DNA of 64,000 bases, taken from the NCBI GenBank assembly GCA_948144175.1, contig CANXME010002305.1:1-64000 (forward strand). The letters are read 5' to 3'. This document shows positions 37,534-64,000 of the stretch, in pieces. The position numbers and the translations under genes are program-made. The first letter of the stretch is position 1. The number at the start of each line of letters is the position of its first letter. Source of the stretch: Closterium sp. NIES-65 (taxonomy: Eukaryota; Streptophyta; Zygnematophyceae; Desmidiales; Closteriaceae). Below the pieces are notes generated by a model. That model was not told the origin of the DNA, searched no databases, and saw only the letters and a list, made by a program, of their open reading frames with translations.

Positions 37534-38181
37534 GCGGTCGCCGGTGCGAAGGACGTAGGTGCAGGGACCGAACGCCCCACCACACTGACGCTGCGAGTAC
37601 CACTCACGGAGCTGCTGAGGGGCGGGGACGTCGCGAGAGCGCTGCTGCTGCTGCTGCTGGCGCTGACCACCCCCAGTGCTGCTCCGCTGGGACGAGCCAC
37701 TCCGACCACCTCCACCACCACCACCCCCGCCTCCGCCGCCACCGCCGCCACCGCCACCCTCGCCCCCGCCGCTCCCACCGCCACCTGCACCGCCACCTCC
37801 GCCGCCACCTCCGCCTCCACTGCCGCCACTAGGACCTCCACCCCCGCCACCACCTCCACCGCCACCCCCACTCCCCCCGCCGCCCCCAACTCCTCCGCTA
37901 CCGCCCCCGCTAGCTCCACCCGCTCCCTTGCCCCCTTTGCCCTTGCCAGAGCGGCGCCTGCCGCTGGGGGCAGACGCCGCACCGACCGACTCTAGACCAA
38001 CGAGGTCGGCCGCAGCAGCAGAGGCGACAGAGGGTTACAGGGGGGAAGGAGAACACCCCTCAAAGATGGGGGTGCGGGGGTCACCATGAGAGGCCCCTAC
38101 AGCGACTATGCTCTTCTCGGCCGCTAGCAGGGACTTCTCGAGGAGGTCGACAATGAGGGTGGTGGGACAGACAGAGAGAAA

Positions 38182-39749: not shown

Positions 39750-39756
39750 CCCAACA

Positions 39757-42700
39757 CTCCCCTTCGCTTCTGGAGTGTCGCTGATGGTGACGTGGCTTTG
39801 TCCAGTCAGCAGCATGCAGTACTCAAACTTCTGTTTTCCAAGTTTCTTGGTCAAGTAGTCGGCTGCCATCTCGGACGTGGGACAGTAGGATAGATCGAGT
39901 TTCCCTTTCTCGATTTCGTCTTTCACGAAGAAGTATCGCAGGGCGATATGCTTCGTTTTGTTCGCGAATCCGCTCTTGTTGGCGATGCGAATTGCGGATT
40001 GGTTGTCGCAGAACAAGGTGAAGTTGGGTAACTCGGCTAACTTTGCTTCTTCCAGCAGCTCGCGAAGGTAGAGTCCTTCCTTGGTGGCTGAGCAAAGGGC
40101 GATATATTCTGCTTCAGCTGAGGAGAGAGCGATTAGTTCCTGCTTACTCGACTGCCAGGAGATAGGTCCGATAGGCTCTAGACGATAGACGTAGCCAGTG
40201 CGAGAGCGCCTGTTATCTGAATTGCCGGCATGGTCGGCATCGACGTAGCCGATTAGTTTCGTTGACGTAGCTTCGCTCTTGTAGTAAGTCAGGCCGATCG
40301 TTGGCGTGCTCACGAAATAGTGCAGTGCGCGATCGAGCTCCGCCAGGTGCTCTGCTTCGGGCTTCTTGAGGTAGGTAGCGAGTTGGCTTGCGGAGTAGGA
40401 TAGATCCGGGCGACAGGTGACGGCTGCGAAGAGGACGCAGCCCAGTTTCCTCTGGTAGTCTCATATTCCGGCAGCTTTGAGTGGAGCGGAATTTCCTTTG
40501 TCATTTCCTGCCGTGTAGCGGTATGGCGTGGCGATAGCGGTAGGTGTGAGCGAAAAACGCTTGGCGATCGTGTCGGCGTATTTCTCGGCGCTTAGATAGA
40601 TCGCATTTTCTTCTTCGCGGATGTTGAGCCCGAGGTACTGCGTGACGGTAGAAGAGACCGTGAGCGTGAGGTCCTTCTGCAGCTCCCCTTCGAACCAGGT
40701 GGTGACGTCGTCGGTGGAGCCGATGTAGAGCAAGTCGTCGACATAGACTATCAGCAGGATGTAGTCTGCGTCTTTGGTGAGTCGGTACATCCCTTGGTCG
40801 TGAGGTAGTTGACGAAATCCGATGCGAGTAAGGCAGGTGTGTAGGTGCTGTTGCCACAGCCGCGGTGCTTGTTTGATTCCGTAGAGAGATTTCAGTAGCT
40901 GACAGACCTGATTGGGGTTTCCGTGGGTACCATGTGGGAGTTCGACGAAGATTTCGGCGTCGACGGGTGCGTAGAGGAATGCATTGGCGACATCAATTTG
41001 TCGCAGCTTCTTCTTCTTCATGGCGGCGACGGCGAGAAGGATTCGGAGAGAGGTATGTCGACTGACTAGGGCGAATGTCTCAGTGAAGTCTCGTCCTTGC
41101 TCCTGATCGAATCCACGCACGACCCAGCGTGCTTTGAATTTCTCGATCTTGCCGTCTACTTTTGTTTTGATGCGGAAGACCCATTTCCCGGTGAGAATAG
41201 TCTTGTTCCTTGCCACGCTTGCGGGAACGACCTTCCAGGTGTTGCGTTCCTCCAATGCCTTTAGTTCTCTGTCCATGGCTTCACGCCATTTCTCCCTGTG
41301 TTCCCCCTCCAGAGCCTGCTGAACCGTCGCAGGCTCTTTAGGAAGAGAGGAGCCATGGACTGCGGTGACGAGGCCGAGAATCTGCAGTTCGGTCTGTGAG
41401 TAGCGGGGGAGTGTTGTGTCCTCGGGATAAGCTGCTTCATCTCCCGCTTCTGGGTCGGGTATGAAATTCGGTCCTACTTTTTCTGCTTCGTTGGTGTTGG
41501 CTGTTGCAGGTGTTACGTAACCATTGTCGGCGAAGTGATAGAAGACTTCGGCGTTGGCACTTTCGCGAGGATTTTCTTCGTCCATGGGGACGTTGACGGA
41601 GCAGAACGGGAGAGGTCCGGCTTCTTCAGATGCGTTGTCGACATTCTGCTCGTCCCAGTCTGCTTTGTCTGCTGCTGAGGCGAATGCTCGGTCACCACAA
41701 AAGCCACCTGTGGGGTTTTGATGCTCGTGCAAGTTGGCGAGGTACGTTTGAAGGGTGAGTCGCTCGTAGAAGATCACATCACGTGCTGCTACTGTTTCCT
41801 TTGAGTGGACGTCGAAGATTTTCCACGCGTTGTAATTTTTCTCGATGCCGAGGTGTAGTCCCCACTGTGCCCGTTGTGAAAATCTTCCCACTCGTGCTTC
41901 TGGGGGTCGGTACTGTACCATGCACCCGAAAACTCGTAACATTTTTGTGCTGCCCTGCTTCCCTGTCCACAGCAGGTGCGGTGATGCGTTGTTCGGGAGT
42001 GACGACGACGACAACAAGTTGTGCAGCATGACAGCATGGTCCATTGCTGCAGGCCACTGGTGGTTGGGTAGCCGCATGCCACGTAACAGTTTGCGCATGC
42101 TGTTCTGCAGAGTCCTGTTCATTCGTTCTGCGACACCTTGCTGCTGATGGGCGTAGGGAAGGGAGAGGAGTTGCTTGATTCCTCTTTCCACCAGGTACTG
42201 CTTGAAGCGCTGAGAGGTGTATTCTCCTCCTCCGTCTGACTGGAAGCTTTTCAGCTGTGCTCCCGACTCTCGTTCTGCTACTGGTAGCCAGGCAGCGAAC
42301 GCTGCGAGTGCCATGTCGCGGCTTGGTAGGTTTAGATGCCAGACATATCGAGTGGCGGCGTCGATGAAGGTAATCGTATAGTTGTAGGTGACTTGTCCTG
42401 GTTCGCGATTGTAGAGGATGTCGCTGTACACCTTCTCGAGTGGTGCGTACGCTGGTGCGCTCGGGTTGTGATGAGGAGCGAACGGTCGATGTGGTAAGTC
42501 AGCTTCGGGGCAGGTAAGACAAGTCCCTCGTGCCTTTTGAAGTTCTCTGCCGTCGGGTAGTAGTAGGGAGTCTTTGTCGAGAACTCCTGCTCTTATCGTG
42601 TTGTTTAAGACTGTGTTGCTTGGATGTCCCAATCGTGCGTGCCAGGTTTCTTCGGAGGCGCGATGTCCGGGTGATCGTCGATACGTGTCGGAGTTGGAGT

Positions 42701-44971
42701 AGAAGCTGGCGACAAAGTTTGCGCTTCTGTGGGCTTCTCGTGGAGTTGGTTTCATCTGCTGTGCGGGTGTTGGTGGTTCTTCGTCGACGAGGGCTGGTGT
42801 CGTTGTTCCTGCTGCTGCTGCCGATGTTGTCTCTGCTGCTGCCGATGATGTCTCTGCTGCTGCCGTTGTTGTTTCTGCTGCTGCCGATGTTGTCTCTGCT
42901 GCTGCCGATGATGTCTCTGCTACTGCCGTTGTTGTTTCTGCTGCTGCCGATGATGTCTCTGCTGCTGTCGATGTTGTCTCTGCTGCTGTCGAGTGTTATA
43001 TTGTTGCTAATGCGCGTGTTCGTTCTGCTTCAGGGATAGTATGGGAGTACCAGAAGCCTTCCGGGCTGAAGTCTGGATCAAGATCTGGAGGGTGCGTCCA
43101 GTCCGTGAAGTTAACAATAGCGTCGCTGTCTGCGGTGCCCAGGTCCGGGACGAAATCCAGGACGAAGACGTTGTTCTTCAGAACTGCCTTCCCGATGTAA
43201 AGGCCGCCTTTCCCGTGATATTATTTAAATTCCTGGGTGGTGATGTCGGCTTCCAGGTGGATGCCCTTCGCCATCAACTGGCTGACGCTCAGTAAGTTGT
43301 AGCCGAGTCCTTCTGCTATTAGTACCTTTGACATGTGTAGTATAACATTAGTCTCCCTGGACTGAAGCTGTACCACTCCTTGTCGTCGTGTGCGCAGGTT
43401 CTGATTGTTGGCAACTGTGATGACGACCTCTCGTTGAAGTCGATGTTCGCGTTGGACGAAGCGTCCCGAAGAGCACATGTGTTGTCCGCACCAGCTGTCC
43501 AAGAACCAAGTATCTTTCCCGGATGGTTCACTTTGAGCAATGGCGGCGTACGTCGGATTCGGTTGAAGAGACTCGCGGCGAGGCGTGCTGTTGTCAAGTT
43601 GTTCTTCGGGTGAGTAGTACGGTGGTGACTCGGTTGTGCAGGAGTCGGTTATCTTTACCATGCAGTTGACGATATTCCTTGGTTTTTGCGCAGGTTGTCC
43701 TGTTGGAGTCGTTGAAGCTTGGACTGAAGTTGTTGGGGCTGCTTGCGTCGAGGTGACTTGGCCGCTCGAAGGTCGGAGTTGTCGCTGTGGTGCTGTCGAT
43801 TGATGACGATACGGGCAGTGAGTGCGAGGATGTCCTGAAGTCTTGCAGATATGGCAAAAAGGAGGTACTGGCTTCGGTTGTTGTTGCTGTCGAGTGTTGC
43901 TATTGTTGTAGCGTCGCTGGGTGTGAAAGGCGAATTCTGGTACTGATGCCTTTTTCTTATGTCGTTCTTCTTGCAGGTCCATATCCTGCTGCTCGGCGTG
44001 GATTTTGGCGCAGAGTGCCGCTTCGGAGATTCTTCCGTGTGCTCGTAATATGGCGCGAGTGGAGCGCCAGTGAGGGCCGAGACCGCCGATGACGACCGTG
44101 ACGAAGGCGTCTTCTGAAATTGAACCTCCACATCGAAGGAGCCTGTCGCGCAGCTCGCGGCAGCGAGTGATATACTCCATGCCTTTCTCGCCTGGCTTCA
44201 TTTCGATTGTTGTCAGCTGCGCCATTAACCGGCTTTGGTCTACACTGTCTGTTGCTTGATACAGGTTCTTCAGGTGGTTGTACGCGAGCTCCGCGGAGTT
44301 GCCGTAGCCTCGGTAAGGCCTGATGTTCTGCTGTTGGGTCGGGGTAATGTTCCTCAGTAGTATAGTGTACGCCATCATTGATTGATAAGTATACTGCTGC
44401 TTCTCATACTGTGTGCCGTTTGTTGGATATGGCAGGGACCCGTCGAAGAAGCCAAGGATTTGCGCTCCTTCCATCATCAGCTCGAATTCGAAAGACCAGG
44501 TGAAGAAGTCTTTTCCGTCAAAGGGCTTTGTCGTTTGGTGCTTTAAAACGTGCGCGAATTGCGACTGAACTTGTAATGCGTCCAGTGCTCTCTCTTGTCC
44601 CGGTGCAAGTTGTGGTTGCGGCATAAAACTGACGGAGCCACGCTGGGGCTCGTACGGAGCAAAGGTGGGTTGTTGATGTTGATTCCCGCGCGCGTAGGAT
44701 GAGCCATCGAGACTCATAGGCGTCACGTTGTTGTTGTTGTTGCTGTTGTTTGATTGCGCAGGTGCTCCTTGCTGGTGCTGCTCGTAGAAGGACATGAAGG
44801 AGAAAAATTTCTCCATCATGCTTGGATCGAAGCCCGCGCCTTGGTTTGCGGGTGTTTCCGTAGACCCAGCTACTGGTCTCGTCGTTGTCCCCTCCTCTGT
44901 CAGTAGGCCAGAGGCAGGTGGTGGAGTAGGGGTAGTACCGGGAGAGCCGTTGGAGGAGCTCCTCTCCTTTC
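39757..44971 (-). mobile_element. Copia body E1 of composite E
   Basis: Gag is at 43221-44819, with a CHICKTSGHPRTHC zinc knuckle and Gln/Asn-rich ends. Integrase, the linker and most of reverse transcriptase are at 40461-42755 (GAG-pre-integrase HARLGHPSNTV, RT YVDDLLYIGSTDD). RNase H is at 39717-40313 (YVDADHAGN, LSSAEAEYIAL). Similarity to E2 is high but clearly below identity. A Ser/Ala repeat array (codons for AAAETTSA-like units) lies between protease and integrase at about 42800-43000. Broken, with a few breaks. Confidence 0.85.
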
Positions 44972-45413
44972 TGTTGGGCTGAAAAATAGCCCTTAGGATC
45001 TTTGCAGAGGAGAACTCTTAGGTAGAAACTTGTAATAGCGGAAGCGTTTTAATGAGGATTGTGAACCGACCTTGCACTGGTGTGTGAGAGCAAAGTAGAT
45101 TAAATTAAACAAGCAAATACAAGGATTTATATAAGAGTACAGGGAATACGAATAGATAGATAGATAACTGTATTGCTGTTGCGGTTCGATATAGTGCGAC
45201 TCGGGCAACTGCTCTGTAACGAGTCAGTTGTGTGTCCTTAACTGTCGCGCTGTAATTGTCGAGTCAAAGGTCAGCGACCTTTGACTTTCTCGTAACCTCC
45301 AGGCGGTTACCCTAACCTCCGAGGTTGACTCGATGCTTCGATTGGGACTGCTTCGCTTGGTGCCTTGGATTTTGATACGACAGAAGCGCACTTAGGACTC
45401 ATTGTTTCCAACA
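44972..45413 (-). repeat. Middle LTR of composite E (442 bp)
   Basis: Starts TGTTGGGCTGAAAAATAG and ends TTTCCAACA. It is visibly more diverged from both outer LTRs than they are from each other, except for its first roughly 48 bases, which equal those of 50545-50592. Confidence 0.85.
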
Positions 45414-48400
45414 CTCCCCTTCGCTTCTGGAGTGTCGTTGCTGGTGACGTGGCCTTGTCCAGTCAGCATCATGCAGTATTCGAACTTCTGCTTTCCGAGT
45501 TTCTTGGTCAAGTAATCGGCTGCCATCTCGGATGTTGGACAGTACGACAGATCGAGTTTCCCTTTTTCTATCTCGTCCTTCACGAAGAAATAGCGCAGGG
45601 CGATGTGTTTCGTCCTGTTTGCGAAGCCGTTTTTGTTGGCGATGCGAATTGCCGACTGGTTGTCGCGGAATACGGTGAAGCTGGGTAACTCGGCTAGCTT
45701 CGCTTCTTCCAGTAGTTCGCGAAGGTAAAGTCCCTCCTTGGTGGCTGAGCAGAGTGCAATATATTCTGCTTCTGCTGAAGATAGTGCGATTAACTCCTGC
45801 TTGCTCGACTGCCAGGAGATAGGACCGATAGGCTCAAGGCGGTAGACATAGCCGGTGCGTGAGCGCCTGTTGTCGGTGTCGCCGGCGTGATCGGCGTCGA
45901 CGTAGCCGATTAGCTTGGTCGGTGTAGTCACGTTTTTGTGATAAGTTAGTCCGATCGTCGCGGTGCTGACGAAGTAGTGGAGAGCACGATCGAGTTCCGC
46001 CAGATGCTCTGCTTCAGGTCTCTTGAGATAGGTAGCGAGCTGACTCGCGGAGTAGGATAGGTCGGGACGGCATGTGACTGCTGCGAAAAGAAGGCATCCA
46101 AGCTTCTTCTGATAGTCGCGTATGCCGGCGGGTTTAAGTAGAGTAGATTGCCCCTTTTCGGTTCCTGACGCGTAGCGATAAGGCGTGGAGATGGCGCTTG
46201 GTGTGAGACGAAAGCGTTTCGCGATAGTGTCGGCGTACTTCTCGGCGCTTAGGTAGATTGCGTTTTCTTCCTCACGGATGTTGAGCCCGAGGTATTGCGT
46301 AACCGTAGAGGAGACCGTGAGCGTGAGGTCTTTCTGGAGCTCCCCTTCGAACCACGTGGCGATGTCGTCGGTTGACCCAATGTAGAGGAGATCGTCCACA
46401 TAGACGATTAGTAGGACGTAATCGCCTCCTTTTGTGAGGCGATACATGCCTTGGTCATGCGGGAGTTGTTTGAAGCCGATGCGGATGAGGCGGGCGTGTA
46501 GGTACTGCTGCCACAGTCGCGGTGCCTGCTTGATCCCATAGAGTGATTTGAGTAGTTGACACACTCGGTTGGGTTCGCCGTGGGAGCCGTGCGGGAGTTC
46601 GACGAAGATTTCTGCATCCACAGGTGCGTAGAGAAATGCGTTCGCAACGTCGATTTGTCGCAATTTCTTTTTCTTCATGGCGGCTACGGCGATGAGAATT
46701 CGGAGTGAGGTGTGGCGACTGACCGGAGCGAAGGTTTCGGTGTAATCTCTTCCGTGCTCCTGGTCGAAGCCACGTACGACCCAGCGGGCTTTGAATTTGT
46801 CGATGGTGCCATCAGCTTTCGTCTTCACACGGAAGACCCATTTCCCGGTAAGAATGTTTTTATTTTGAGTTACGCCGATGGGAACAATTTTCCAGGTGTT
46901 GCGCTCCTCCAGTGCCTTCAGCTCTTTGTCCATAGCTTCACGCCATTTCTCCCTGTGTTCCCCCCCCAGAGCCTGCTGAACCGTCGCAGGCTCCTTAGGA
47001 ATGCCGGCGCCATGGACTGCGGTGACGAGACCAAGGATTTGCAGCCCAGTCTGTGAGTATCGAGGGAGTTCTGGATCCTCGGGATAAGCTGCTTCGTCTC
47101 CCGTTTCTGGGTCTGGCATGAAATTTGGCCCTACCCTTTCTGCTTCGTTGGTGTTGACTGTCACAGGTGTTACGTAACCATCGTCGGCGAAACGGTAAAA
47201 GATTTCGGTGTTGTTACTGTCGCGAGGATTATCCTCATCCATGGGCACGTCGACGGAGCAGTATGGGAGAGGTCCGGCTTCTTCCGAGGCGTTGTCGACG
47301 TTCTGTTCATCCCAGTCTGCTTCGTCCGCTACTGACGCGAAGGCTCGGTCACCACGAAAACCACTGGTGAGGTCCCGATTCTCGTGCAAGTTGGCGAGGT
47401 ACGTCTGAAGGGTGAGTCTTTCGTAGAAGATCACGTCACGTGCTGCTACTGTTTCCTTTGTGTGGACGTCGAAGATTCTCCATGCGTTGTAATTTTTCTC
47501 GATGCCGAGGTGTAGTCCCCACTGTGCCCGTTGCGAAAATCTTCCCGCTCGTGCTTCTGGGGGTCTGTACTGTACCATGCACCCGAAAACTCGTAACATT
47601 TTCGTGCTGCCCTGCTTCCCTGTCCACAGCAGATGCGGTGATGCGTTGTTCGGGAGTGACGACGACGACAACAAGTTGTGCAGCATGACAGCGTGGTCCA
47701 TTGCTGCTGGCCACTGGTGGTTGGGTAGCCGCATGCCACGTAACAGTTTGCGCATGCTGTTCTGCAGGGTCCTGTTCAGTCGTTCTGCAACACCTTGCTG
47801 CTGATGTGCGTAGGGAAGGGAGAGGAGTTGCTTGATCCCCCTTTCCGCCAAGAACTGCTTGAAGCGCTGAGAGGTGTACTCGCCACCTCCGTCTGACTGG
47901 AAATTTTTCAGTTGTGTTCCAGACTCTCTCTCTGCTATCGGTAGCCAGGCGGCGAATGCTGCGAGCGCCATGTCGCGGCTGGGTAGGTTGCGATGCAAGA
48001 CGTATCGAGTGGCGGCGTCGATGAAGGTGATGGTGTAGTTGTAGTTGACTTGTCCTGGTTCGCGATTGTAGAGGATGTCGCTATAGACTTTTTCGAGTGG
48101 TGCGTACGCTGGAGCGCTCGGGTTGTGATGTGAAGCAAACGGTCGATGAGGTAAGTCAGCTTCGGGACATATAAGGCAAGTCCCTCGTGCCTTCTGGAGT
48201 TCTCTGCCATCGGGTAGAAGTAGAGAGTCTTTGTCAAGGACTCCTGCTCTTATCGTGTTATTCAAAACCGTGTTGCTTGGATGTCCTGTGCGTGCGTGCC
48301 AGATCTCTTCAGAGGCGCGGTGTCCGGGTGAGCGCTGATATGCGTCGGAGTTGGAGTAAAAGCTGGCGACGAGGTTGGCGCTTCGGTGGACTTCACGTTG

Positions 48401-50494
48401 AGTCGGATTCAGCTGTTGCGCGGGTGTTGGTGGTGCTTCGTCGACTGTGACTGGTGTCGTTGTTCCTGCTGCTGCTGATGTTGTTGCTGCTGCCGGTGTT
48501 GTTGCTGCTGCCGATGTTGTCGCTGCTACTTCTTGTTGAATCGTTGCTAACGCTCTTGTTCGCTCTGCTTCAGGGATAGTGTGGGAGTACCAGAAACCTC
48601 CCGGGCTGATGTCGGGGTCGAGATCCGGAGGGTGTGTCCAATCAGCAAAGTTCATAATGGCGTCGCTGTCTGCAGTGCCGAGGTCGGGAGCGAAGTCGAG
48701 GACGAAGACATTGTTCTTCAGCACTGCTTTCCCGATGTAGAGACCGCCTCTCCCGTGGTAAAGCTTGAACTCCTGGGTCGTGCTGTCGGCTTCCAGATGA
48801 ATTCCTTTTGCCATCAACTGGCTAACGCTCAGTAAGTTGTAGCCGAGTCCTTCAGCGATGAGTACCTTAGACATGTGCAGTATGACATTTGTTTCTCTTG
48901 ACTGAAGCTGTACCACTCCTTGTCTTCGTGTGCGCAGGTTTTGGTTGTTGGCAACCGTGATGATTACTTCCCGTTGGAGTCGATGTTCGCGTTGTACGAA
49001 ACGCCCGGACGAGCACATGTGTTGCCCGCAGCAACTGTCCAAGAACCAGGTGTCTTGGCCGGACGGTTCACTTTGAGCGATAGCGGCGTAAGTCGGATTT
49101 GGATGGAGTGATTCGCGACGAGGCGTCCTGTTGTCGAGCTCCTCTTCCGGTGAGTAATGGGGTGGTGACTCTGTTATGCAAGAGTCGTTTATCTTGACCA
49201 TGCAGTTGACTATATGTCTTGCTCCTTGTGCAGGTTGTCCAGTTGAGGTTGTTGAAGCTTGAATCGTGGTTGTCGAGCTTGCTTGTGTCGAAGCAACTTG
49301 GGTGCTTGAAGGCCGCAGTTGTCGCTGTGGTGTTGTCTGTCGAGACGGGCAGTGCGTGCGTGGGTGTCCTGATGTCTTGCAGATGTGACAAAATGGAGGT
49401 ACTAGCTTCGGCTGCTGCTGTCGATTGTTGTAGTAGTTGTGTCGTCGCTGAGTATGGAAAGCAAACTCCGGTGCTAATGTCCTTTTCTTGTGTCTTTCTT
49501 CTTGCAGGTCCATATCCTGCTGCTCGGCGTGAATTTCTGCGCAAAGTGCCGCTTCGGAGATCCTCCCGTGTGCTCGAAGAATTGCTTTGGTGGCGCGCCA
49601 CTGAGGACCGAGGCCGCCGATGATGACTGTTACGAAGGCGTCTTCAGAGATTGACCCTCCACATCGAAGAAGCTTGTCGCGCAATTCGCGACATCGGCTG
49701 ATATACGCCAACCCTTTTTCTCCTGGTTTCATTTCAACTGTTGTCAGCTGCGCCATTAACCTGCTCTGGTTTACACTGTCTGTTGCCTGGTACAGGTTCT
49801 TCAGATGGCCGTACGCGAGTTCCGCCGAGTTGCCGAAGTTCCGGTAAGAGCGAATGTTCTGCTGCTGGGTTGGTGTGATGTTTCTCAGTAGAATGGTATA
49901 CGCCATCATGGATTGGTATGTATACTGCTGCTTTTCATACTGTGTCCCGTTTGCTGGATACTGCAGGGATCCGTCGAAGAAGCCGAGTATCTGCGCGCCC
50001 TCCATCATCAACTCGAATTCAAAGGACCAGGTAAAGAAGTCCTTTCCGTCGAAAGGTCTTGACGTCTGAAGTTTCAGAACATGCGCGAACTGCGACTGTA
50101 CTTGTAAGGCATCCATTGGTTTATCTTGCGCAGGTGGAGGTTGAGGCAGGAAGCTGATCGACCCGCGTTCGTACGGGGCGAAGGTGGGTTGCTGCTGTTG
50201 ATTCCCTCGCGCGTATGACGACCCGTCAAGGCTCATGGGTGTCGCTCCGTTGTTGCTGTTGTGTGTCTGTGCAGGTCCCGACTGCTGGTGTTGCTCGTAG
50301 AAGGACATGAAGGAGAAAAATTTCTCCATCATGCTCTGGTCGAAGTCAGAAGGATGGTTCGTGGGGGTCTCGGTTGATGTTCCCCTTGGTCTTGCTGCCG
50401 TGCCTTCCTCTGTCTGCAGGCCAGAGGCTGGCGGTGGAGTAGGAGTAGTGCCCGAGGAGCCATTAGGGGAGCTCCTTTCCTTGTTTGTTGCCAT
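45392..50494 (-). CDS. Gag-Pol polyprotein of Copia body E2 (looks whole)
   Basis: A single 1700-codon frame with the complete Copia order. Gag covers about residues 1-400, with a CHICKTSGHPRTHC zinc knuckle near residue 370. Protease has an LDSCCGQHMC-type active site near 475. GAG-pre-integrase (HARTGHPSNTV) and integrase (DGGGEYTSQRF, the ERLNRTLQ block) cover about 720-1000. Reverse transcriptase (YVDDLLYIGSTDD) is near 1300-1400 and RNase H (YVDADHAGD, SSAEAEYIAL, KHIALRYFFVKDE) covers about 1550-1690. The stop lies a few codons inside the middle LTR. The enzymes copy element RNA into DNA in virus-like particles and integrate it; this is known for the family, not shown here. Confidence 0.92.
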   Translation of the reverse strand: MATNKERSSPNGSSGTTPTPPPASGLQTEEGTAARPRGTSTETPTNHPSDFDQSMMEKFFSFMSFYEQHQQSGPAQTHNSNNGATPMSLDGSSYARGNQQQQPTFAPYERGSISFLPQPPPAQDKPMDALQVQSQFAHVLKLQTSRPFDGKDFFTWSFEFELMMEGAQILGFFDGSLQYPANGTQYEKQQYTYQSMMAYTILLRNITPTQQQNIRSYRNFGNSAELAYGHLKNLYQATDSVNQSRLMAQLTTVEMKPGEKGLAYISRCRELRDKLLRCGGSISEDAFVTVIIGGLGPQWRATKAILRAHGRISEAALCAEIHAEQQDMDLQEERHKKRTLAPEFAFHTQRRHNYYNNRQQQPKLVPPFCHICKTSGHPRTHCPSRQTTPQRQLRPSSTQVASTQASSTTTIQASTTSTGQPAQGARHIVNCMVKINDSCITESPPHYSPEEELDNRTPRRESLHPNPTYAAIAQSEPSGQDTWFLDSCCGQHMCSSGRFVQREHRLQREVIITVANNQNLRTRRQGVVQLQSRETNVILHMSKVLIAEGLGYNLLSVSQLMAKGIHLEADSTTQEFKLYHGRGGLYIGKAVLKNNVFVLDFAPDLGTADSDAIMNFADWTHPPDLDPDISPGGFWYSHTIPEAERTRALATIQQEVAATTSAAATTPAAATTSAAAGTTTPVTVDEAPPTPAQQLNPTQREVHRSANLVASFYSNSDAYQRSPGHRASEEIWHARTGHPSNTVLNNTIRAGVLDKDSLLLPDGRELQKARGTCLICPEADLPHRPFASHHNPSAPAYAPLEKVYSDILYNREPGQVNYNYTITFIDAATRYVLHRNLPSRDMALAAFAAWLPIAERESGTQLKNFQSDGGGEYTSQRFKQFLAERGIKQLLSLPYAHQQQGVAERLNRTLQNSMRKLLRGMRLPNHQWPAAMDHAVMLHNLLSSSSLPNNASPHLLWTGKQGSTKMLRVFGCMVQYRPPEARAGRFSQRAQWGLHLGIEKNYNAWRIFDVHTKETVAARDVIFYERLTLQTYLANLHENRDLTSGFRGDRAFASVADEADWDEQNVDNASEEAGPLPYCSVDVPMDEDNPRDSNNTEIFYRFADDGYVTPVTVNTNEAERVGPNFMPDPETGDEAAYPEDPELPRYSQTGLQILGLVTAVHGAGIPKEPATVQQALGGEHREKWREAMDKELKALEERNTWKIVPIGVTQNKNILTGKWVFRVKTKADGTIDKFKARWVVRGFDQEHGRDYTETFAPVSRHTSLRILIAVAAMKKKKLRQIDVANAFLYAPVDAEIFVELPHGSHGEPNRVCQLLKSLYGIKQAPRLWQQYLHARLIRIGFKQLPHDQGMYRLTKGGDYVLLIVYVDDLLYIGSTDDIATWFEGELQKDLTLTVSSTVTQYLGLNIREEENAIYLSAEKYADTIAKRFRLTPSAISTPYRYASGTEKGQSTLLKPAGIRDYQKKLGCLLFAAVTCRPDLSYSASQLATYLKRPEAEHLAELDRALHYFVSTATIGLTYHKNVTTPTKLIGYVDADHAGDTDNRRSRTGYVYRLEPIGPISWQSSKQELIALSSAEAEYIALCSATKEGLYLRELLEEAKLAELPSFTVFRDNQSAIRIANKNGFANRTKHIALRYFFVKDEIEKGKLDLSYCPTSEMAADYLTKKLGKQKFEYCMMLTGQGHVTSNDTPEAKGSVGNNES

Positions 50495-50544
50495 GTCTTG
50501 TAATGATCAAAAGTTAGAGTTTTCCCCTGTCAGCTCTCATACCA

Positions 50545-55850: not shown

Positions 55851-58800
55851 ATGGCTGAACGGATGGACGCGATGCATTCCGCCATTCACTCGAGCGGCGA
55901 CGATCGAAGCAACGGAGCTAGCGTTTCCGCCGCCTCGCCTCGTACCGATGGCGATATTTCCGCCGAGTCTCTGCGCGACCTCCACGCCTCCGCCGCCGAG
56001 CCGCTGCTTGGCAGCAGCAGATCTTCCGCCTCCGCTTCCGCCTCTCCGCTCGTTAAGAGATCCGCCGCTGCTGCGACTAGCGCTTACGAGCCAATCGAAA
56101 ACGGCAACGTGGCAGCTACGAGCACGAGCGTGCCAATGAGAGAGGTCCACGTGGATCTGTACATTCGCGGGCGGGGCAAGAGCGGCAAGGGCAAGGGGCC
56201 GGCGTGCTCGTTCGCGGCGCAGCTGCTGGGGTGGCACGCGGACCGCCTTGACGTGGCGGCGATTAAAAGGCGACACGGGCTCAAGGCGCTCTTCGCGCTC
56301 TCGTCCACCGGCGTGCGCGGGTTAGAGCTGGTGGCGAACCCGCGGAACGGACTGTCGCTGACGACCTACACGGGCAAGCCCGGCAGCAGAATTACGCTGG
56401 ACGGGGAACCGCAGGTGGGTGTGAGAGGGCAACGGGGTGAGGGGCTCCCTCGGGGTGGTGTGGGATGGAGGGGGTGCTGCTGGGTAGGACGAAGAGGGAG
56501 GCGCGCGCGTTAGAGCTGGTGAGGAACCCGCGGAACGGGCGGTCGCTGACGACTTATACCGGCAAGCCAGGCAGCCGAATCCCGCTCGATGGGGAACCAA
56601 AGTTATGCGATTGTGAGGGCAAGCGGGCGGGGAGTTGCGGGCTCCTGGGGGGTGCTGAGGGGTGCTGGGAGGCGCGGGGGTTTGAGCTGGTGGGGAACCC
56701 GCGGAACGGATTGTCGCTGACGACATACACGGGCAAGCCGGGCAGCCGAATCGCCCTTGATGCGGATCCGCAGGTGTGCTTCTGAGAACAGGGGGGCGCG
56801 GGGTGCAGCAGGTGCGGGGGTTGGGGGATGGGGGCTATGTTGGAAAAGTCGCGCCCAGCGCATTATACGCAAGCGCATATACGCTTGCGTATAGTGCGTT
56901 ATGCGCTTCGTGAGTGACTTTGAAAGTCGCAGAAAGTACGCTGCCTGGGCAGCAAAAGGTTTTTACCGGGCAGACGAAAAAAAACCGCCGAAGGAGGGGG
57001 GGGGGAGTGGTGGTTTTACCGAATTTCATATATTGAAAAAACCCACCATTCTCAACTACTCTAAGCAAGCAACATGCATCTCTCCTACCCCACCCCCTAC
57101 TCCCACCCTCTACTCCTCCCGTCCCTTCCTTCCTCCTCTACTTGTACTCATCCTCTAGCTCATCCTCCTCCCCCTCCTCCTCATCCTCCTCCAGAACCTC
57201 GTTGTACCCTTCCGGCAGGGAGGCCTCAGGGATGTTCCCCGGGAGAACCGTCACCCACTCAGCCCCCTTGTGCCAGTTGCGCACAATGTTCCAATTGTGC
57301 GCAACATACACGAGGTCCCGACACTTCTCGGACCCCAACCTGTTGCGCTTGGCAGTGTGGATCGATTCCCACACTGCCCAGTTCCTCTCACACGCCGATG
57401 CGGACACTGGCTGAGAGATAACGCGGCAAGCGAGCGTTGTCAGCTCGGGGTGCTCCGTCCCGTGCCACGTCCACCACTGGACGGCCGTCTTCTTACCGGC
57501 CTTCACGAGCTCACGGTCAGAGATGGCGTCGGGTAGGCCGAAGCTCCCCTAAAGGGTGTTGAATGCCGTCAGGCCGTCCTGGATGACGTGGGATGCGCGC
57601 AGCTCCTCGCCATCCTTGCGCGTGACGGTCCGCCCTGCGTAGTGACGAGCGACAAACGCTTTGAAGACGCGAGTACACTCCAGGTCAGTGCGGAAGATGC
57701 CTTCCTCTTGGTTGACCGGGTTGAGGATCCGGCCAACCACGTGCATGGCACACGCCATGCTATGGTCCCAGCGCTTTTGGACGATGTTGGTCACCTCCGT
57801 GCGTTCACTGCTGGACAGCACCAATCCCGCCTCCTCCTCCTCCAGCTTCGCATTGATGTCTTCCGTGAGCTGTAGCATCAGATCGTCCATCCTGCCCATC
57901 ATGCCCTTGGCCGTCGAGTCGGTCTTGCGCATGACGACAAAGGGTATCTTCAGGAGGGCGACGAAGAACTCCGCCCCTTTCCACCACACGGCATCCATGA
58001 TCATGGCTTCGAAGGGCTCGACCGGCGGCTTCCTCCCCTTCGCCCAAGCCTGCCACTCCGGGCTCAGCACCATCTGCGTCAATGCACTCCGCACCTCGCA
58101 AAGCCGCTGCACCGCAATGAATTGCGTGCCAAATTTGGTGCCCGCCGGCTTCAGCACCTGCTTCCCCTTCCCTCCCTTCACTTGCGGGCTTCGCATGTAA
58201 CCTTTGGTGAAATGGTGGGCACGCACAAAGGTAATAATCACCCCCGCCTTAGCCACAATGTCCTTCGCCCAATCCATTTTCCCAATGTCCTCCATGAGCA
58301 GATCCATGACGTGAGTAGCGCACGGCACATGCTCAATGTGAGGATACTCAAGCATGAGTTCCCTACATGCAGCCGCATAATTGCTGCCCCCATCCATGCA
58401 TAACGCAACTATGTTGGCGGGCCCCACCTTCTCAATGATCGGGCGCAAAACGGATGCAATGTAGCCTCCCGTCTTCGTCTCCAACTTACAGTCGATGCTT
58501 TCGGTGAACACTGCACCGGAATCGTTGATGAGCAGGATGTTGGCTTGGGGACGGCCACTTTTGTCCGTCATCATGTCCGAGCCTATCGTCACGCCATCCC
58601 GCTTCCAGCTCGCAGTGATGGGAGCGAGCCCCCTCTCGATCTTTTCGCGGCAACGCGCAAGGCCGGCGCCACCAACATACCGCCGCTTCGGGGGAACGTA
58701 GCCATGGCCCGCGTCCGTGATGCAGCGCACAGCGTTGCGCCAGAGAGGGTGATCGGCGAGATGCTCCGGGAGGTGAAGTGCCGCCCACATGAGGCAGATG

Positions 58801-60633
58801 GCGTCGTCTGCCGATTCCTTCGCACACGACGCCCCTTCCCCGTAGAAGTCTTCGATGCACTGCTTCTTCGCTCCACCCGCACACGCCTCGATCGCCATCT
58901 CCTCCGCCTTCTTCTTCCCTTCCCTGCGGGCGTGTTTGCCTTCGTACAATTTGCGGACGGCGCCGCGGTCAGCAGAAGGGATAGGCGCCTTGCAAAGACG
59001 GACGTCCTTCCGTTTCAGCCCTTTCCAGCGCGTGATGTGTTGCGCGCAACGGAAGGCGCCCCCTACGAACTTAAGCTTGCAGTGCCGGCATATGCGGAGA
59101 GTACGCTCAGGACCATTCGAGGTACCTTCGGTAGAGGTAAGGAAATGCTTAGAAATAACATGGGTGTTCACAGGAACATCCTCGTCGTCCGCCATGGTCG
59201 CGTCATTCGAAACACTAGGAGCCTCACTAGTGGCACTTGCGGGAGTACCAGAAGGAGTCGACATCAAGTGCAGGTGAGCGGGAGTGTTGAGAGAGAATGA
59301 ACGAGAGAGATAATACAGATGACGGGAATGAGAGCTTACCTTATAGTCCAGGATGTGGTTGAACCACCTACGCTGGTTGACGACATTCGTGTTTGTGTGT
59401 TGGAGTCGCGCGATAGCATAGGGTGCAGTGCGGTTCAAATTTTCCCACGTCCCCACATTTCGACAGGTGTGGGTGACAATGTGGTTGGGACGTGCGTACA
59501 AATTGGCAGGGACGTGCGTACATTTTGAGTCGCGTCAAACATTCGCAATTCGTGCGCGACTATTGAAATCTTGTTTTTTTTCGGGTCAGCCCGAACTTTC
59601 GCCAACGAATATACGTACGACTTGCGTACACCGTATATTCGTAAACGACTATACGGAGTGCGCTTATGGTTTCTGGCGACTTTTCCAACATAGGATGGGG
59701 GTTGGGGGTGCGGGGTGTGGGGGGAAGGGAGAGTGGGAGGGGGTCGCTGGCCGGTGCAAGGTAGGACGAGCACGAGGGCGCCCGCGAGTTGGAGCTGGTG
59801 GGGAATCCGCGGAACGGGCAGTTACTGACGATGTGCAGCGGCAAGCCTGGCAGTCGAATCACGCTCCATGGGGAACCGCAGGTGGGCGATTGTGAGGGCA
59901 GGCGGGTGGAGAGTTTCTTCGGGGTGTTGTGGGGTGCAGGTGGGTGCTGCAGGGTGCTGTGGCCCGCGGGGGGTAGGATGAAGACGAGGGGGGGCGCGGG
60001 TTGGAGCTGGTGGCTAACTTATCCGCGGAACTGGTTGTCGCTGGCGACTTGTAGCAGCCAGCAAGCGGGGCAGCACAATAATGCTCGATGGGGAACCGCA
60101 GGTGAGCTTGTGAGTGCAGTTGGTGTGCAGGGGGGTGTGCAGGGGGTGTGCAGGTGGGTGCAGGGGGTGTGCAGGTGGGTGCAGGGTAATACGAAGATTT
60201 TGGGGTGGGCGCGGACAGGACGAAGACGAGGGCATGTGCGGGCGTGTCAGAATTCTAAGGTTAAGGCCTAAGAAATCCTGACAGAGGGTGTAGCGGAGAG
60301 CGAAGGCGAAAAACCTGTACATTTGTATATAAGCGAAACCGATTGTGGCGAAGGGCAGTAACGGCAGCGGCGTGGCGGGGTGAGACAGGTTGCAGAAAGG
60401 TGGGGCGAGGAACTGGATTCGGGGTGCGCTGGCAAGGTTACAGCGAGATGACGTGGAGGAGGGTGCGGGTGGGGAGCATACTGTGTGATGTGTGGTGTGC
60501 ATGCGTGTGCTTTGGTTTCTTCTTGCAGACACCGAGTCCAGGACAGAGCTGGGAAGCAGCAACGCCAGCTGGAGACGGGTGGAAAAGCATTGTGGATGGC
60601 AAGCTAGGTAGCCTAGCACTGTTGCATTGTTAG
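55851..60633 (+). CDS. Unnamed protein, two exons separated by a 4.1-kb intron
   Basis: Predicted exons 55851-56414 and 60529-60633 join in phase 0 (CCGCAG|GTGGGT, TTCTTGCAG|ACACCG) to give 222 residues. I do not recognise the family. Residues 1-90 are Ser/Ala-rich. The ordered part starts near residue 97 (VHVDLYIRGRGKSGKGKG), continues DRLDVAAIKRRHGLKALFAL and ends with NPRNGLSLTTYTGKPGSRIT and LDGEPQ. Exon 2 adds TPSPGQSWEAATPAGDGWKS and a short end. There is no signal peptide or membrane segment. The in-frame ATG at 55719 is an alternative start; 55851 begins MAERMDAMHS. The intron holds four copies of the end of exon 1 and a hAT transposon. The stop is at the last codon before retroelement-flanking sequence, so the native 3' end is uncertain. 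Confidence 0.6.
56509..56773 (+). repeat. Two intronic copies of the end of exon 1 (left of the hAT)
   Basis: 56509-56602 and 56681-56773 repeat the last 94 bases of exon 1 (56321-56414). They keep the reading of NPRNG, SLTTYTGKPGSRI and a DGEPK or DADPQ end. The second keeps a CAG|GT donor; the first does not. Confidence 0.85.
56835..59693 (-). mobile_element. hAT DNA transposon (complete ends) in an intron
   Basis: The perfect 18-bp terminal inverted repeat CTATGTTGGAAAAGTCGC is at 56835-56852, with its complement at 59676-59693. The 8-bp target duplication GATGGGGG, the size expected for hAT, flanks it at 56827-56834 and 59694-59701. Subterminal palindromic words such as GCGCATATACGCTTGCGTAT fit transposase-binding repeats. 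It carries a transposase gene on the minus strand and splits the array of exon-1 copies into two pairs, so it arrived after the duplications. Confidence 0.93.
57138..59264 (-). CDS. hAT transposase (BED finger, DUF659-like core, hAT dimerisation domain)
   Basis: From MSTPSGTPAS at 59264, a BED-type zinc finger follows (CRHCKLKFVGGAFRCAQHITRW). The catalytic core has the DUF659-like block SDMMTDKSGRPQANILLIND, an aspartate in ALCMDGGSNYAAA and the CATHVMDLLMEDIGK block. The C-terminal dimerisation domain is at 57138-57450 (SASACERNWAVWESIHTAKR). The frame is continuous except for one in-frame TAG at 57549-57551 between core and dimerisation domain, so this copy probably makes a truncated protein unless an intron removes the stop. 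An upstream frame from 59501 may be a separate 5' exon. The enzyme cuts and pastes elements bearing the CTATGTTGG ends. Confidence 0.85.
59788..60101 (+). repeat. Two intronic copies of the end of exon 1 (right of the hAT)
   Basis: 59788-59881 and 60001-60101 repeat the same segment. Both end CCGCAG|GT, and the last has the strongest donor (GTGAGC). The fourth copy is the most diverged and no longer reads cleanly. Confidence 0.82.
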
Positions 60634-61217
60634 GCCAACCTTGCTAGGGTTTGCGTAGGGAAGCTTAAGGCAGGGTCCTGGGCCATGGGACTGCCACTAC
60701 GTGTTTGTTTTCGTAAATTACTGCAGCATTCTGTTTTCAAGATAAGCAGTCTTAGCACGGAGCCATAACCGCAGTCAGGATGAGTTAGGAGGTAGATGAA
60801 CTTACAAACACGCAGTCCGTGCAACTGAGATCGGGACGACAGCTAGAGCCGGTGATGGTCAGGCCTAGTTCGAACGAAAGGATGCTGAACGAAGAAGGGG
60901 GTCAGCGGGAGACGGGAAGAACGGAGGGCCAGAAGGGCCTCAGTGAAGGAGCGAGTGGTCCGCAAGGCGTCGCTCGGGAAGAACCAGGCGACAGCGGGAA
61001 GAATGCGTCCGATGAGCAGCGGGAACGCCATCGCAGCCAGATGCTGGGGCGCCCGCAGCCGGGGGGACCAAGTGCGTATCAGCGGAGCGCCTCGTGGCAA
61101 GGAACCGAAGACGAGGCGACGTTGCAGCGATGGAAGTACACGCAACTGCCCAAGATAGAAATGCCGGAGAGATTCTCGGGAGACGCGAGACGGGGGGCGA
61201 GTCTTTAAAACTACATC

Positions 61218-62138
61218 ATGCAGCTGGAAAACCTCCAGGCGCGCTGGGCGAAGGATCGGTTGGATCCGGAAGAATTCTTCAGAGGCTTGGCGAATACCCT
61301 GGCGGGCGAGGCGGAGACCTACTACAGAATTTCCAGGAGAGAGCTGCTGGAGTGGTCTGCGGAACGAGCGCCAGGCGAACGGGACCCGACGGTGCGCTTC
61401 CTATCGATGCTCCGCGAGCAGTTCCCGCTACAAACCGCGGAAAGGGTGGTCGAGTTCCGAGGATTCCGTCGTCGGGAAGGGGAATCATTGCTGGCGTACT
61501 ACGGGAGACTCGTGGAGCTGGGGGAGGACATGAATTGCACGGACCAGGGACGGCTGATTGGGAAGTTTGTAAACGGACTGAGCCAGCCACTGCGGCAGGA
61601 TGTGGAAGTGCGAGTGTTCGAAATGGGATCAGAAGCCACCTTGAGGGAAGCCTATGAGATCGTGAAACGAGTGGAGACCGGGCGTCGGCTATATGAAGTG
61701 GAGCGGACGACGGATAGAGGACCAGAGAGGAGGTGGCCGGCATGGGCAGCGGCATCGGCCTACCCAGAGGCAGAGGAGAGGGCGAGAGAGGAGCCGCGGA
61801 GATGTCACAACTGCGGTCTAACCGGGCATCTCCGACGAGATTGCCGTAACCCTGCGGCTTGCTCGCTGTGTGGAAGCCGAGAGCACATGCGAAGGGAATG
61901 CCCAGGCACGCCAACTTGTACGCGGTGCAATCGCAAAGGACACTGCGAAGCGGATTGCTACGCGGGAAGACGGGAGCGCCGGGGCGCAGAAGCAGGGGAG
62001 GATCGCCAAGCCACTATCGTGCGACTGCGGGCGCAGTTAGCCGACTTAGAGGCTGCCGAGCAGAAGGAACCGGCCATGGTAGCACGCGAAGATGAAGACG
62101 CGGAGGAACCTGAGTTTATTCTCATGGCTCAGCCGTAG
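61218..62138 (+). CDS. Gag of element M, three zinc knuckles
   Basis: The retrotransposon-gag fold covers about residues 1-150 (FFRGLANTLAGEAETYYRIS, then VRFLSMLREQFPLQTAERVV and FVNGLSQPLRQDVEVRVFE). Three CX2CX4HX4C nucleic-acid-binding knuckles follow: CHNCGLTGHLRRDC, CSLCGSREHMRREC and CTRCNRKGHCEADC. An acidic end closes it. It would package element RNA into virus-like particles. Three knuckles in a row is more than the single one usual for Gypsy. Confidence 0.88.
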   Translation: MQLENLQARWAKDRLDPEEFFRGLANTLAGEAETYYRISRRELLEWSAERAPGERDPTVRFLSMLREQFPLQTAERVVEFRGFRRREGESLLAYYGRLVELGEDMNCTDQGRLIGKFVNGLSQPLRQDVEVRVFEMGSEATLREAYEIVKRVETGRRLYEVERTTDRGPERRWPAWAAASAYPEAEERAREEPRRCHNCGLTGHLRRDCRNPAACSLCGSREHMRRECPGTPTCTRCNRKGHCEADCYAGRRERRGAEAGEDRQATIVRLRAQLADLEAAEQKEPAMVAREDEDAEEPEFILMAQP

Positions 62139-62282
62139 CGTGAGCGTGACGAATTGGGCTTGCGGAGGGCCACATGCAGGCAGAACTTCCCTGAAGACGT
62201 GCGGCGAGAGGCGGGACCAAGGCGGCGAGCTAGTGATCGCCCGGAGGGAGCGGGAGCAGCATATCGGCACCGAAGAGAGAGA

Positions 62283-64000
62283 ATGGCCTGTCAGGCCACC
62301 GTGCTGACTATAGCCGCCGGAGTGGTTACTATCGGAGGCTTCACGGCGCAACGAGCAATAGTGGACACGGGAGCAGCGCATGTGTTGATTGGCAAGAGCC
62401 TGGCGGAAAAGCTGCAACTGCACAAGCCGGGACGGCTGATCGCAGAAGGATACCTCTTCATGACGGCCGATGGGGGAGAGGCGAAATGGATGCCCAAGAC
62501 CAGGCAATCCATATCCCTAATGCTGAACCCAGGAACTACGGAGGAGTGCGCGCTGAGAGTGGACTGCGGAGTGTCAGAATCAGAGGATTTTGATTTGCTC
62601 ATCGGGGTGGAATACCTGTTCGGGATCGGAGCCACCATCTGCATGTGGGAGGAGAAGGTGCAGTATCGGGTGTGCTACTGGGAAGACGACGGGCCAATTG
62701 GTACCTTGCCAGTGCGCTTCGTGAGAAAGGAACCACGAGAAGCCTACCAGTGCACAGAAGCGGAGATACGGGAGGAGCTGGGCATACCCACCTGGCAGCA
62801 GATCTCACGGCTGCCAGCGCCGCAGGCGGAACCTGCGGAGGGAGAACCAGACCTCAAGGCGCTGTGCACCGACACCAAGCGGCTACTGGGACCGACGGTC
62901 GTGCTCGACCTCTTTGGCGGTATAGGAACGGGGCTGGCGGCGGTGCTGAAGTCAGGTATCAGCGTGGAGAAGTGGATCTTGGTGGAGAGTGACATGGAGG
63001 CGGCTAAGATGGCAGTGTGCCACGCACACAAGTTGCATGAACGTTACCCGCATCAATTCTGCACCGCCACCCTGGACCACAGTATGCTATGCGGGGCCAG
63101 CGACATCCGACGCGTCGATGAACAGCAGTTGCGCGAATGGGGGAGAATTGACATAGTGGTGGCAGGATGGGAGTGCCAGGGCTACTCACGAGCAGGAGAA
63201 GGGAGAGGCATGAGAGACGAAAGGAGCAGTTTGTTCCGGGAGTTGCAGCGAGTGTTGGGGCTGATCAAAAGAATCCAGGGAGACGTGCTTTACATAGTGG
63301 AGAACGTGGATATGGAAGGGGACATAAGGGAGCAGGTGCAGCTGGCGCATGAGGAAATCACGGCGGTGCTGGGGCCAGGCGTGGTGATAGACGGAGCGCA
63401 AATAGGGAGCATGACACACCGAGTGCGAAGATTTTGGACGAATGGGGTCAGTGACGCTGCACTACAGTATCGCCTATCCCTGATGGAGCGGCCAGTTCCC
63501 CGCCTGGTAGAGGACATCATGGAACCAGGGAGGCTGGCGGCACCGGTGACAAGGCTGGACCACCCAGCTCAGTTCCCCTGTAACGAAGTAGGGAAGCCAA
63601 GGCAGGCCTGGCCGACGTTCGTCTCCTACCGAAACGCGGCAGCCTTCAGGATGCACGGGGACGACCCATGCCCAGGCATGGTTTATGACTGCACGGCCGG
63701 GGAGTGGCAGGAACCTACGGCGCTGGAGAGGGAGCTGGCAATGGGCTTCATGGAGGACGCAACCGCACACCCGGAGGTGACGCAAGACGAGAGGAGAGCG
63801 CTGGGCAGGACCATGGATCTCAACGTCATGCATTGGCTCGTAGCCACCATCCGGATGTACCACTCCCAGCTGCGGTGGGAGCGGAAGAGAGATAAGGCAG
63901 CGGCAGTGCGCCCACCTACGGAGAGATCGGCGGCGAAGGAGGCCATGGCGCGGGCAATGCTGGGTGAGATAGAGGAACACGACGAGCGGCAACATGAGCG
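62283..64000 (+). CDS. Pol of element M: retropepsin followed by C5 DNA methyltransferase (open at window end)
   Basis: The frame has no stop across its 572 visible codons. Retropepsin: IVDTGAAHVLIGKSLAEKLQ near residue 25, with LLIGVEYLFGIGATI near 105. The methyltransferase starts near residue 200. It has motif I DLFGGIGTGLAAV (SAM binding), the acidic VESD of motif II, motif IV ECQGYSRAG with the catalytic-type Cys, an RSSLFRELQRVL helix as in DRM/DNMT3 enzymes, motif VI IVENVDME, and motif VIII THRVRRFW. A motif IX-X region near residue 480-525 (ALERELAMGF, RRALGRTMDLNVMHWL) resembles the DNMT3/DRM C-terminus. The family transfers methyl groups from S-adenosylmethionine to cytosine in DNA. 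Position between protease and the expected RT implies that it is processed from Pol. Substrate and activity are not shown. Confidence 0.88.
   Translation, partial: MACQATVLTIAAGVVTIGGFTAQRAIVDTGAAHVLIGKSLAEKLQLHKPGRLIAEGYLFMTADGGEAKWMPKTRQSISLMLNPGTTEECALRVDCGVSESEDFDLLIGVEYLFGIGATICMWEEKVQYRVCYWEDDGPIGTLPVRFVRKEPREAYQCTEAEIREELGIPTWQQISRLPAPQAEPAEGEPDLKALCTDTKRLLGPTVVLDLFGGIGTGLAAVLKSGISVEKWILVESDMEAAKMAVCHAHKLHERYPHQFCTATLDHSMLCGASDIRRVDEQQLREWGRIDIVVAGWECQGYSRAGEGRGMRDERSSLFRELQRVLGLIKRIQGDVLYIVENVDMEGDIREQVQLAHEEITAVLGPGVVIDGAQIGSMTHRVRRFWTNGVSDAALQYRLSLMERPVPRLVEDIMEPGRLAAPVTRLDHPAQFPCNEVGKPRQAWPTFVSYRNAAAFRMHGDDPCPGMVYDCTAGEWQEPTALERELAMGFMEDATAHPEVTQDERRALGRTMDLNVMHWLVATIRMYHSQLRWERKRDKAAAVRPPTERSAAKEAMARAMLGEIEEHDERQHE

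Follow-up and report, generated by a model that had tools for sequence, protein, structure and literature searches.

A split-repeat Ty3/Gypsy-type retroelement of a Closterium-like alga carries a predicted DNMT3-class methyltransferase domain with an altered motif IV

The closest described systems are the retroelements of de Mendoza et al. (2018, PMC5890265), which we summarize from the parts of that paper available to us. KnitGypsy-Dnmt3 of Klebsormidium nitens combines Gypsy domains with DIRS-like repeats, and the Symbiodinium elements SymbioDIRS-Dnmt3 and SymbioLINE-Dnmt also encode cytosine methyltransferases. In yeast, the SymbioDIRS-Dnmt3 domains methylated CG sites and the authors suggested that element cDNA is methylated. 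The KnitGypsy-Dnmt3 and SymbioLINE domains gave no methylation, which the authors regarded as inconclusive, in the case of KnitGypsy-Dnmt3 because human DNMT3B failed as well. Where these parts of the paper mention target site duplications, they do so only for SymbioLINE. PMC12344493, in the portion accessible to us, cites this work and names LTR Copia and DIRS elements.

The retroelement analysed here resembles KnitGypsy-Dnmt3, as described in those parts, in its Gypsy domains, with reverse transcriptase (RT), RNase H and rve integrase, in a DNMT3-class domain placed after the protease, in split repeats of the order A-coding-B-A-B (in six of nine copies here) and in purifying selection on the DNMT. 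It differs in reading ECQ rather than PCQ in motif IV and in its far greater number of copies (a lower bound, which duplicated contigs may also inflate) compared with the few given for KnitGypsy-Dnmt3. Sibling copies of our element maintain one frame through the integrase, whereas the related protein P0034 from Klebsormidium (marked partial) and its relatives P0050–P0054 end just past the DNMT. The Symbiodinium elements share with it a retroelement-encoded cytosine methyltransferase and, in the DIRS type, the A-coding-B-A-B order, but they have dinoflagellate hosts and use a tyrosine recombinase or an endonuclease in place of the rve integrase. Ordinary Ty3/Gypsy LTR elements have the same RT-RNase H-integrase order, TG...CA ends and short target duplication; the present family differs from them in lacking a full LTR at each end and in carrying the extra DNMT. 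It is also distinct from DIRS elements, which use a tyrosine recombinase and make no target duplication, as it encodes an rve integrase and is flanked by 4-bp duplications. The DNMT3-bearing, split-repeat Gypsy kind is known from Klebsormidium, and the branch described here, which is very abundant, is a variant of it with ECQ in motif IV. Our literature search, which had most subscription journals outside its reach, found no report of such elements in Closterium.

The window, the whole 64,000-base stretch analysed, comprises bases 1–64000 of a 298,768-base contig (C2007) in an 874-Mb genome of 2,400 contigs. The element copy that it contains spans 60245–67461 (TGTC...GACA), such that the window end falls inside the element, and is flanked on both sides by GGCG, a 4-bp target duplication that was read after the ends had been set. 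The initial annotation, made from the letters of the window, had described a frame running from a retropepsin into a methyltransferase behind a three-knuckle gag, and matches to Asp_protease_2, PF00145 and zf-CCHC bear this out (Table 1).

Table 1 Features of the element copy within the window (contig positions).
Feature	Position	Strand	Details
Left target-site duplication, GGCG	60241–60244	.	Right copy at contig 67462–67465, outside the window
Repeat A1, left terminal unit, starts TGTC	60245–60800	+	Matches A2 of sibling C62 at 94.96% identity (556 bp)
gag frame, first part	60789–61205	+	Ended by in-frame TAA 61206–61208; aligned relatives (P0004) read through
gag frame, second part, three CCHC zinc knuckles	61209–62135	+	zf-CCHC E 1.9e-7; knuckles at 61803–61844, 61860–61901 and 61917–61958; ended by in-frame TAG 62136–62138
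pol frame: protease, DNMT, start of RT	62139–64000, on to contig 64946	+	936 codons in full
Retropepsin-like protease region	62283–62702	+	Pfam Asp_protease_2 E 2.3e-5; DTGA at 62364–62375
DNMT3-class C5-methyltransferase domain (predicted)	62862–63857	+	PF00145 E 2e-8; limits from the family profile
Motif I	62916–62933	+	GGIGTG
Motif IV	63165–63182	+	GWECQG
Motif VI	63297–63311	+	VENVD
Motif VIII	63414–63437	+	THRVRRFW
IX-X-like block	63723–63749; 63798–63818	+	LERELAMGF; ALGRTMD

The contig to the right of the window confirms the proposed Gypsy type. Past the TAG at 64947, pol resumes in the same frame (64950–67232), and Pfam searches of the two frame pieces identified an RVT_1 domain split in two halves by this TAG, RT_RNaseH (E 1.7e-35), Integrase_H2C2 (E 9.3e-16) and rve (E 1.5e-10). 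In addition, the RT of a Closterium relative, P0017, is closest to Ty3. The RT and integrase expected from rightward extension were therefore found, together with RNase H; the expected classical LTR was not, the repeats being split instead. The window copy contains three in-frame stops (TAA 61206, TAG 62136 and TAG 64947) and has GTG at the codon that aligns with the first codon of sibling C2075. Its gag and pol share one reading frame, interrupted between them by the second of these stops, and are fused in relatives such as P0004 and P0005. We ruled out programmed read-through of the TAG between gag and pol because P0004 and P0007 carry a residue at that position. Sibling copies encode gag, protease, DNMT, RT, RNase H and integrase in one open frame of ~2,140 codons, and open frames of 2,000 or more codons were found at 10 of the 123 genome places scored in one search. 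The window copy thus represents, with near certainty, a Ty3/Gypsy-type retroelement, here in short form and decayed, whose host is a Closterium-like alga. Further to the right, from ~70.9 kb, the contig contains Copia-type pieces (gag_pre-integrs and SH3_retrovirus).

The PF00145 match, obtained in the profile search that the initial annotation had proposed, lies over the curated cut-off, while NCBIfam dcm matches the same pol frame at E 6.7e-9, under its own cut-off. Among solved structures, the pol frame is matched best by chains of DNMT3A and DNMT3B (best E 1.6e-8, for query residues 247–430). A family profile built from 14 domains and compared with the PDB had DNMT3A as its top match (1e-28), together with a second stretch that matched weakly across the C-terminal block. 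Next came the 4onj chain "DNA methyltransferase" (1.1e-12), which we take to be tobacco DRM, HhaI (1.5e-10), DRM2 (5.6e-10) and a tRNA methyltransferase/DNMT2 (2.9e-7); the 57 listed matches include no chain under the name DNMT1 or CMT. The roman numerals in Table 1 follow the motif numbering of the family. With this numbering, the window domain has the canonical order I, IV, VI, VIII and C-terminal block, and the DRM-type rearrangement is not seen. By these profile matches the domain is of the DNMT3 class, with a DNMT3-like C-terminal block. The earlier label "DNMT3/DRM-like" therefore stands for its first half only, DNMT3 being the better name because the motif order is canonical and not rearranged. 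All of the motifs listed at the outset are present, but motif IV has Glu in place of the Pro of PCQ.

PCQ is described as a conserved triad with its Cys as the nucleophile in the accessible parts of PMC6709928, and ECQ is thus a natural variant of it. In the window's genome, Glu precedes the motif IV Cys in 21/21 covered sequences (20 places, with C62 entered twice; six pieces do not cover the position). The same residue is found in 25 of the 26 covered Closterium proteins (one Ser; 11 not covered) and in six of seven proteins of the RT-first group (Pro in the seventh). By contrast, Pro occupies this position in 16 of 17 covered Klebsormidium-like proteins (one Leu; one not covered) and in 6/6 other recognised proteins (P0071 not covered); P0037 and P0049, which the text pattern missed, read PC by eye. 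Codons for GWECQGY occur at 197 genome places compared to none in the control, with varied third bases among the matches listed. The ECQ motif was not found in print in the literature search described above, which did not use ECQ as a search word. Methyltransferase activity cannot be assumed, because Glu replaces Pro in nearly all covered copies, and the change in motif IV may leave room for an altered or binding-only role.

Whatever its chemistry, the domain appears to be maintained. Nei–Gojobori dN/dS ratios for the DNMT were 0.06–0.33 in 8 of 10 pairs (two saturated), compared to 0.04–0.15 for RT-RNase H in 9 of 10 pairs (one saturated), 0.03–0.18 for the integrase (7/7 pairs) and 0.03–0.32 for the protease (6/6 pairs); the method is rough for several of these pairs, in which dS exceeds 1, and the window pairs include a decayed copy. 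Judged by these ratios, the DNMT domain is under purifying selection, and very probably it has a selected biochemical role. One such role would be that of a binding module for DNA or an RNA/DNA hybrid, kept without the usual methyl transfer for cDNA handling or for the steering of insertion. In favour of this reading, ECQ is present in nearly all covered sequences of the window's genome and of Closterium, and selection acts on the whole domain. However, the motif IV Cys and Gln and the motif VI Glu, which pure binding would not need, are invariant in 14/14 aligned domains, as is one Arg of motif VIII, and we consider a purely binding role rather unlikely.

The copy count suggested by the initial annotation was obtained from two genome searches, which scored at least 121 related places among 1424 candidates (each E ≤ 8.4e-111) and at least 123 among 901, counts that are lower bounds, although some of the places may lie on duplicated contigs, as with C708. 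In the protein searches, 71 distinct relatives were recovered, of which 37 are labelled Closterium, two Klebsormidium nitens and one Marchantia polymorpha; the best Closterium match covers 54% of the query at 79% identity. Together with the interleaving of the DNMTs of this genome and of Closterium in the DNMT tree described below, this suggests a Closterium species or a close relative of one as the host. The 71 proteins and the at least 121 genome places indicate that the union of DNMT and retroelement is more than chance. A fortuitous join, or an unrelated methyltransferase gene lying beside a retroelement fragment, is refuted by the single frame, the common termini with target duplications and the many copies of the same order, and has a negligible probability.

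The number of copies also bears on what the predicted methylase might act upon. Hundreds of copies could affect the host methylome, as is discussed in the available parts of PMC5890265, and a defence role for transposon-encoded methylases has been proposed (PMC6338049, likewise as accessible to us). An enzyme aimed mainly at host DNA, at rival elements or at DNA viruses would serve such defence or host manipulation. However, because the domain is part of the gag-pol polyprotein, its place is more likely to be the particle, and we regard a main target outside the element as unlikely. Relatives in viral contigs were not confirmed in either of two scans; one of these gave two pattern matches, which had no tblastn support. 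That the element's own DNA is the main target is the reading we lean towards, at somewhat below an even chance. Three observations count against it: the ECQ motif, the KnitGypsy-Dnmt3 result in yeast (PMC5890265, in the parts available to us) and the CpG content, in which the depletion that might trace self-methylation was not seen (0.74–0.82 in eight copies, compared to 0.45–1.09 in window bins).

To define the ends of the element we compared sibling copies, placed the boundaries by their terminal letters and read the four flanking bases afterwards. An upstream versus downstream blastn of the window copy for classical LTRs had given short matches only (best 92 bp at 84%), no full LTR was found at each end, and the A and B limits taken from the siblings replaced the classical LTR reading. 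The 11 loci examined were chosen non-randomly, eight on account of their long open frames and two, C708 and C62, because they are closely related copies. They comprise nine resolved independent copies (the window copy, C62, C2075, C802, C343, C2100, C321, C1450 and C1728), C783, whose ends could not be placed, and C708. The latter (C708:231400–241300, L049) was not counted as independent because it matches both the window locus and the flanks of that locus (99.67% identity over 9.9 kb); either this segment is duplicated or the assembly includes a second haplotype of it. TGTC...GACA ends and 4-bp target duplications are present in 9/9 independent copies, and no resolved locus among the 11 lacks the duplication.

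Six of the nine copies have the split repeats A1-ORF-B1-A2-B2, reading A-ORF-B-GC-A-B from TGTC to GACA. The window copy, C1450 and C1728 have the short form A-ORF-B, which may have arisen by recombination between B1 and B2 or by insertion of a short molecule; the window copy accordingly has neither A2 nor a second A-B, and C1728 additionally carries a duplication of 440 bp close to the left end. Repeat A is 554–629 bp long and 97.3–99.8% identical within a copy, while repeat B is 145–283 bp long and 95.1–100% identical as measured in C2075, C802, C343 and C62, the second B of C2100 and C321 being deduced from the repeated end motif. In five long copies the A repeats are 99.5–99.8% identical, which indicates recent insertions; C62, at 97.3%, is older. 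The GC linking B1 to A2 creates the junction GACAGCTGTC, which occurs once in each of the six long copies and in 0/5 other loci. Genome-wide this 15-base junction was found 172 times, compared to four times for the reversed control. In contigs C1–C1770, which hold 70 of the 121 scored DNMT places, the exact junction lies 3–6 kb downstream on the same strand for 25/70 places and upstream for none. These contigs contain 98 junctions, 26 of which have a partner among the listed DNMT places. The combination of split repeats, integrase-type ends and 4-bp duplications was not found in print within the reach of our search; it bears on how these elements replicate.

The insertion point after the protease had been put forward as a possible mark of independent capture. 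This is not supported. In Klebsormidium nitens P0034, zinc knuckle, protease and DNMT follow one another as they do here, the DNMT shares 34% identity with that of the window and, as far as the available parts of PMC5890265 describe KnitGypsy-Dnmt3, both kinds have DIRS-like split repeats. P0069 is also a Klebsormidium protein. In a DNMT tree of 62 rows, which includes a long DNMT3A outgroup and omits near-duplicate copies and domains covering fewer than 262 profile positions, the DNMTs of the window's genome and of Closterium interleave in a clade of their own (100). A separate acquisition, within the Closterium lineage, of a DNMT3 from the host would fit this clade and its motif IV, which differs from that of the Klebsormidium-like group, and the node that joins the clade to its nearest group, the Klebsormidium-like set with P0070 and P0037, is supported by 80 only. 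By contrast, the shared position and split repeats argue against it, as does the RT tree (18 rows), in which elements with a DNMT cluster (99) to the exclusion of Ty3 and a single DNMT-less Gypsy (window 7853–9286), albeit a small sample. We judge an independent capture to be distinctly unlikely. The reading of a shared capture rests on DNMT and RT trees without host DNMT3 genes, and no recognisable host DNMT3 was among the proteins returned by the third protein search.

The domain order varies among relatives. In the window element the DNMT precedes the RT. In P0033, P0035 and P0040, which likewise have a same-family DNMT with ECQ in a Gypsy-type polyprotein, it is placed after RNase H and before the integrase, with a PHD finger as the last domain. 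P0070 has the order DNMT-RT-RNase H-integrase-PHD. One capture with later shuffling of domain order would be the simplest reading of these arrangements. The PHD finger after the integrase, a second chromatin-type domain, is found in the DNMT-bearing Gypsy-type proteins P0033, P0035, P0040, P0041 and P0070, and our search, with the reach given above, found no such arrangement in print.

Taken as a whole, the data are best explained, though tentatively and with a little less than even confidence, by a Ty3/Gypsy-type element whose DNMT3-class methylase would most simply have been inherited from an ancestor shared with KnitGypsy-Dnmt3. The methylase would travel beside the RT and methylate the element's own cDNA or fresh insertions, such that new copies would be born marked and either cost the host less or be hidden. 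The integrase would join the start of A and the end of B to the target, and the palindromic B-GC-A junction resembles joined ends. The domains of the window copy, the ends in 9/9 copies, the split repeats in 6/9, the DNMT dN/dS, the DNMT3 class, the domain order and repeat type in common with Klebsormidium and, from a different element, the CG methylation by SymbioDIRS-Dnmt3 in yeast (PMC5890265) support this explanation. A bolder version, which we think improbable, is that a large zygnematophyte retroelement clade altered the heart of its DNMT3 (PCQ to ECQ), kept it under selection and spread to hundreds of places, with the enzyme acting on an unusual substrate, an RNA/DNA hybrid or circular cDNA of the element itself, and the split repeats coupled to a retroviral-type integrase working on joined GACA-GC-TGTC ends. 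If true, this would be a replication scheme between those of LTR and DIRS elements. With retrotransposons that bear the class of enzyme by which they are silenced, it becomes possible to test how self-methylation and element success are linked, and the window's genome, with its many DNMT-bearing copies and a DNMT-less Gypsy, provides the contrast needed for such a test.

Two further proteins returned by the searches may extend the range of such elements. Marchantia polymorpha P0036 (MARPO_0020s0163) has knuckle-like sequences at 300 (CWTCGGDHLRRDC) and 332 (CDHCGRAGHTRDRC), LLDSGA, which resembles a retropepsin motif, at 581 and, further on, a DNMT whose GWPCQG lies at 852; Pfam matched the DNMT only. 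The protein looks like a gag-protease-DNMT in a land plant, and PMC6338049, in its accessible parts, states that land plants, such as tracheophytes, lack transposons encoding methylases. P0049 has an N-terminal DNMT in an RT protein and a C-terminal end that appears tyrosine-recombinase-like by eye, and is possibly a DIRS-type DNMT element.

Other elements and repeats lie in the remainder of the window. The DNMT-less Gypsy frame (7853–9286, + strand) has SH3_Tf2-1 directly after RNase H. Three Copia-type elements or parts (RVT_2, rve) lie on the minus strand at 32788–38034, 40464–45017 and 45395–50506, and segments 39751–42879 and 45408–48527 are 85% alike. A 661-codon frame at 57552–59534 (minus strand) matches DUF659 (E 2.6e-34), a domain typical of hAT-like transposases. 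Finally, a dispersed repeat of ~100–280 bp, present at 59748–60119 and 56310–56776, recurs several times near the element.
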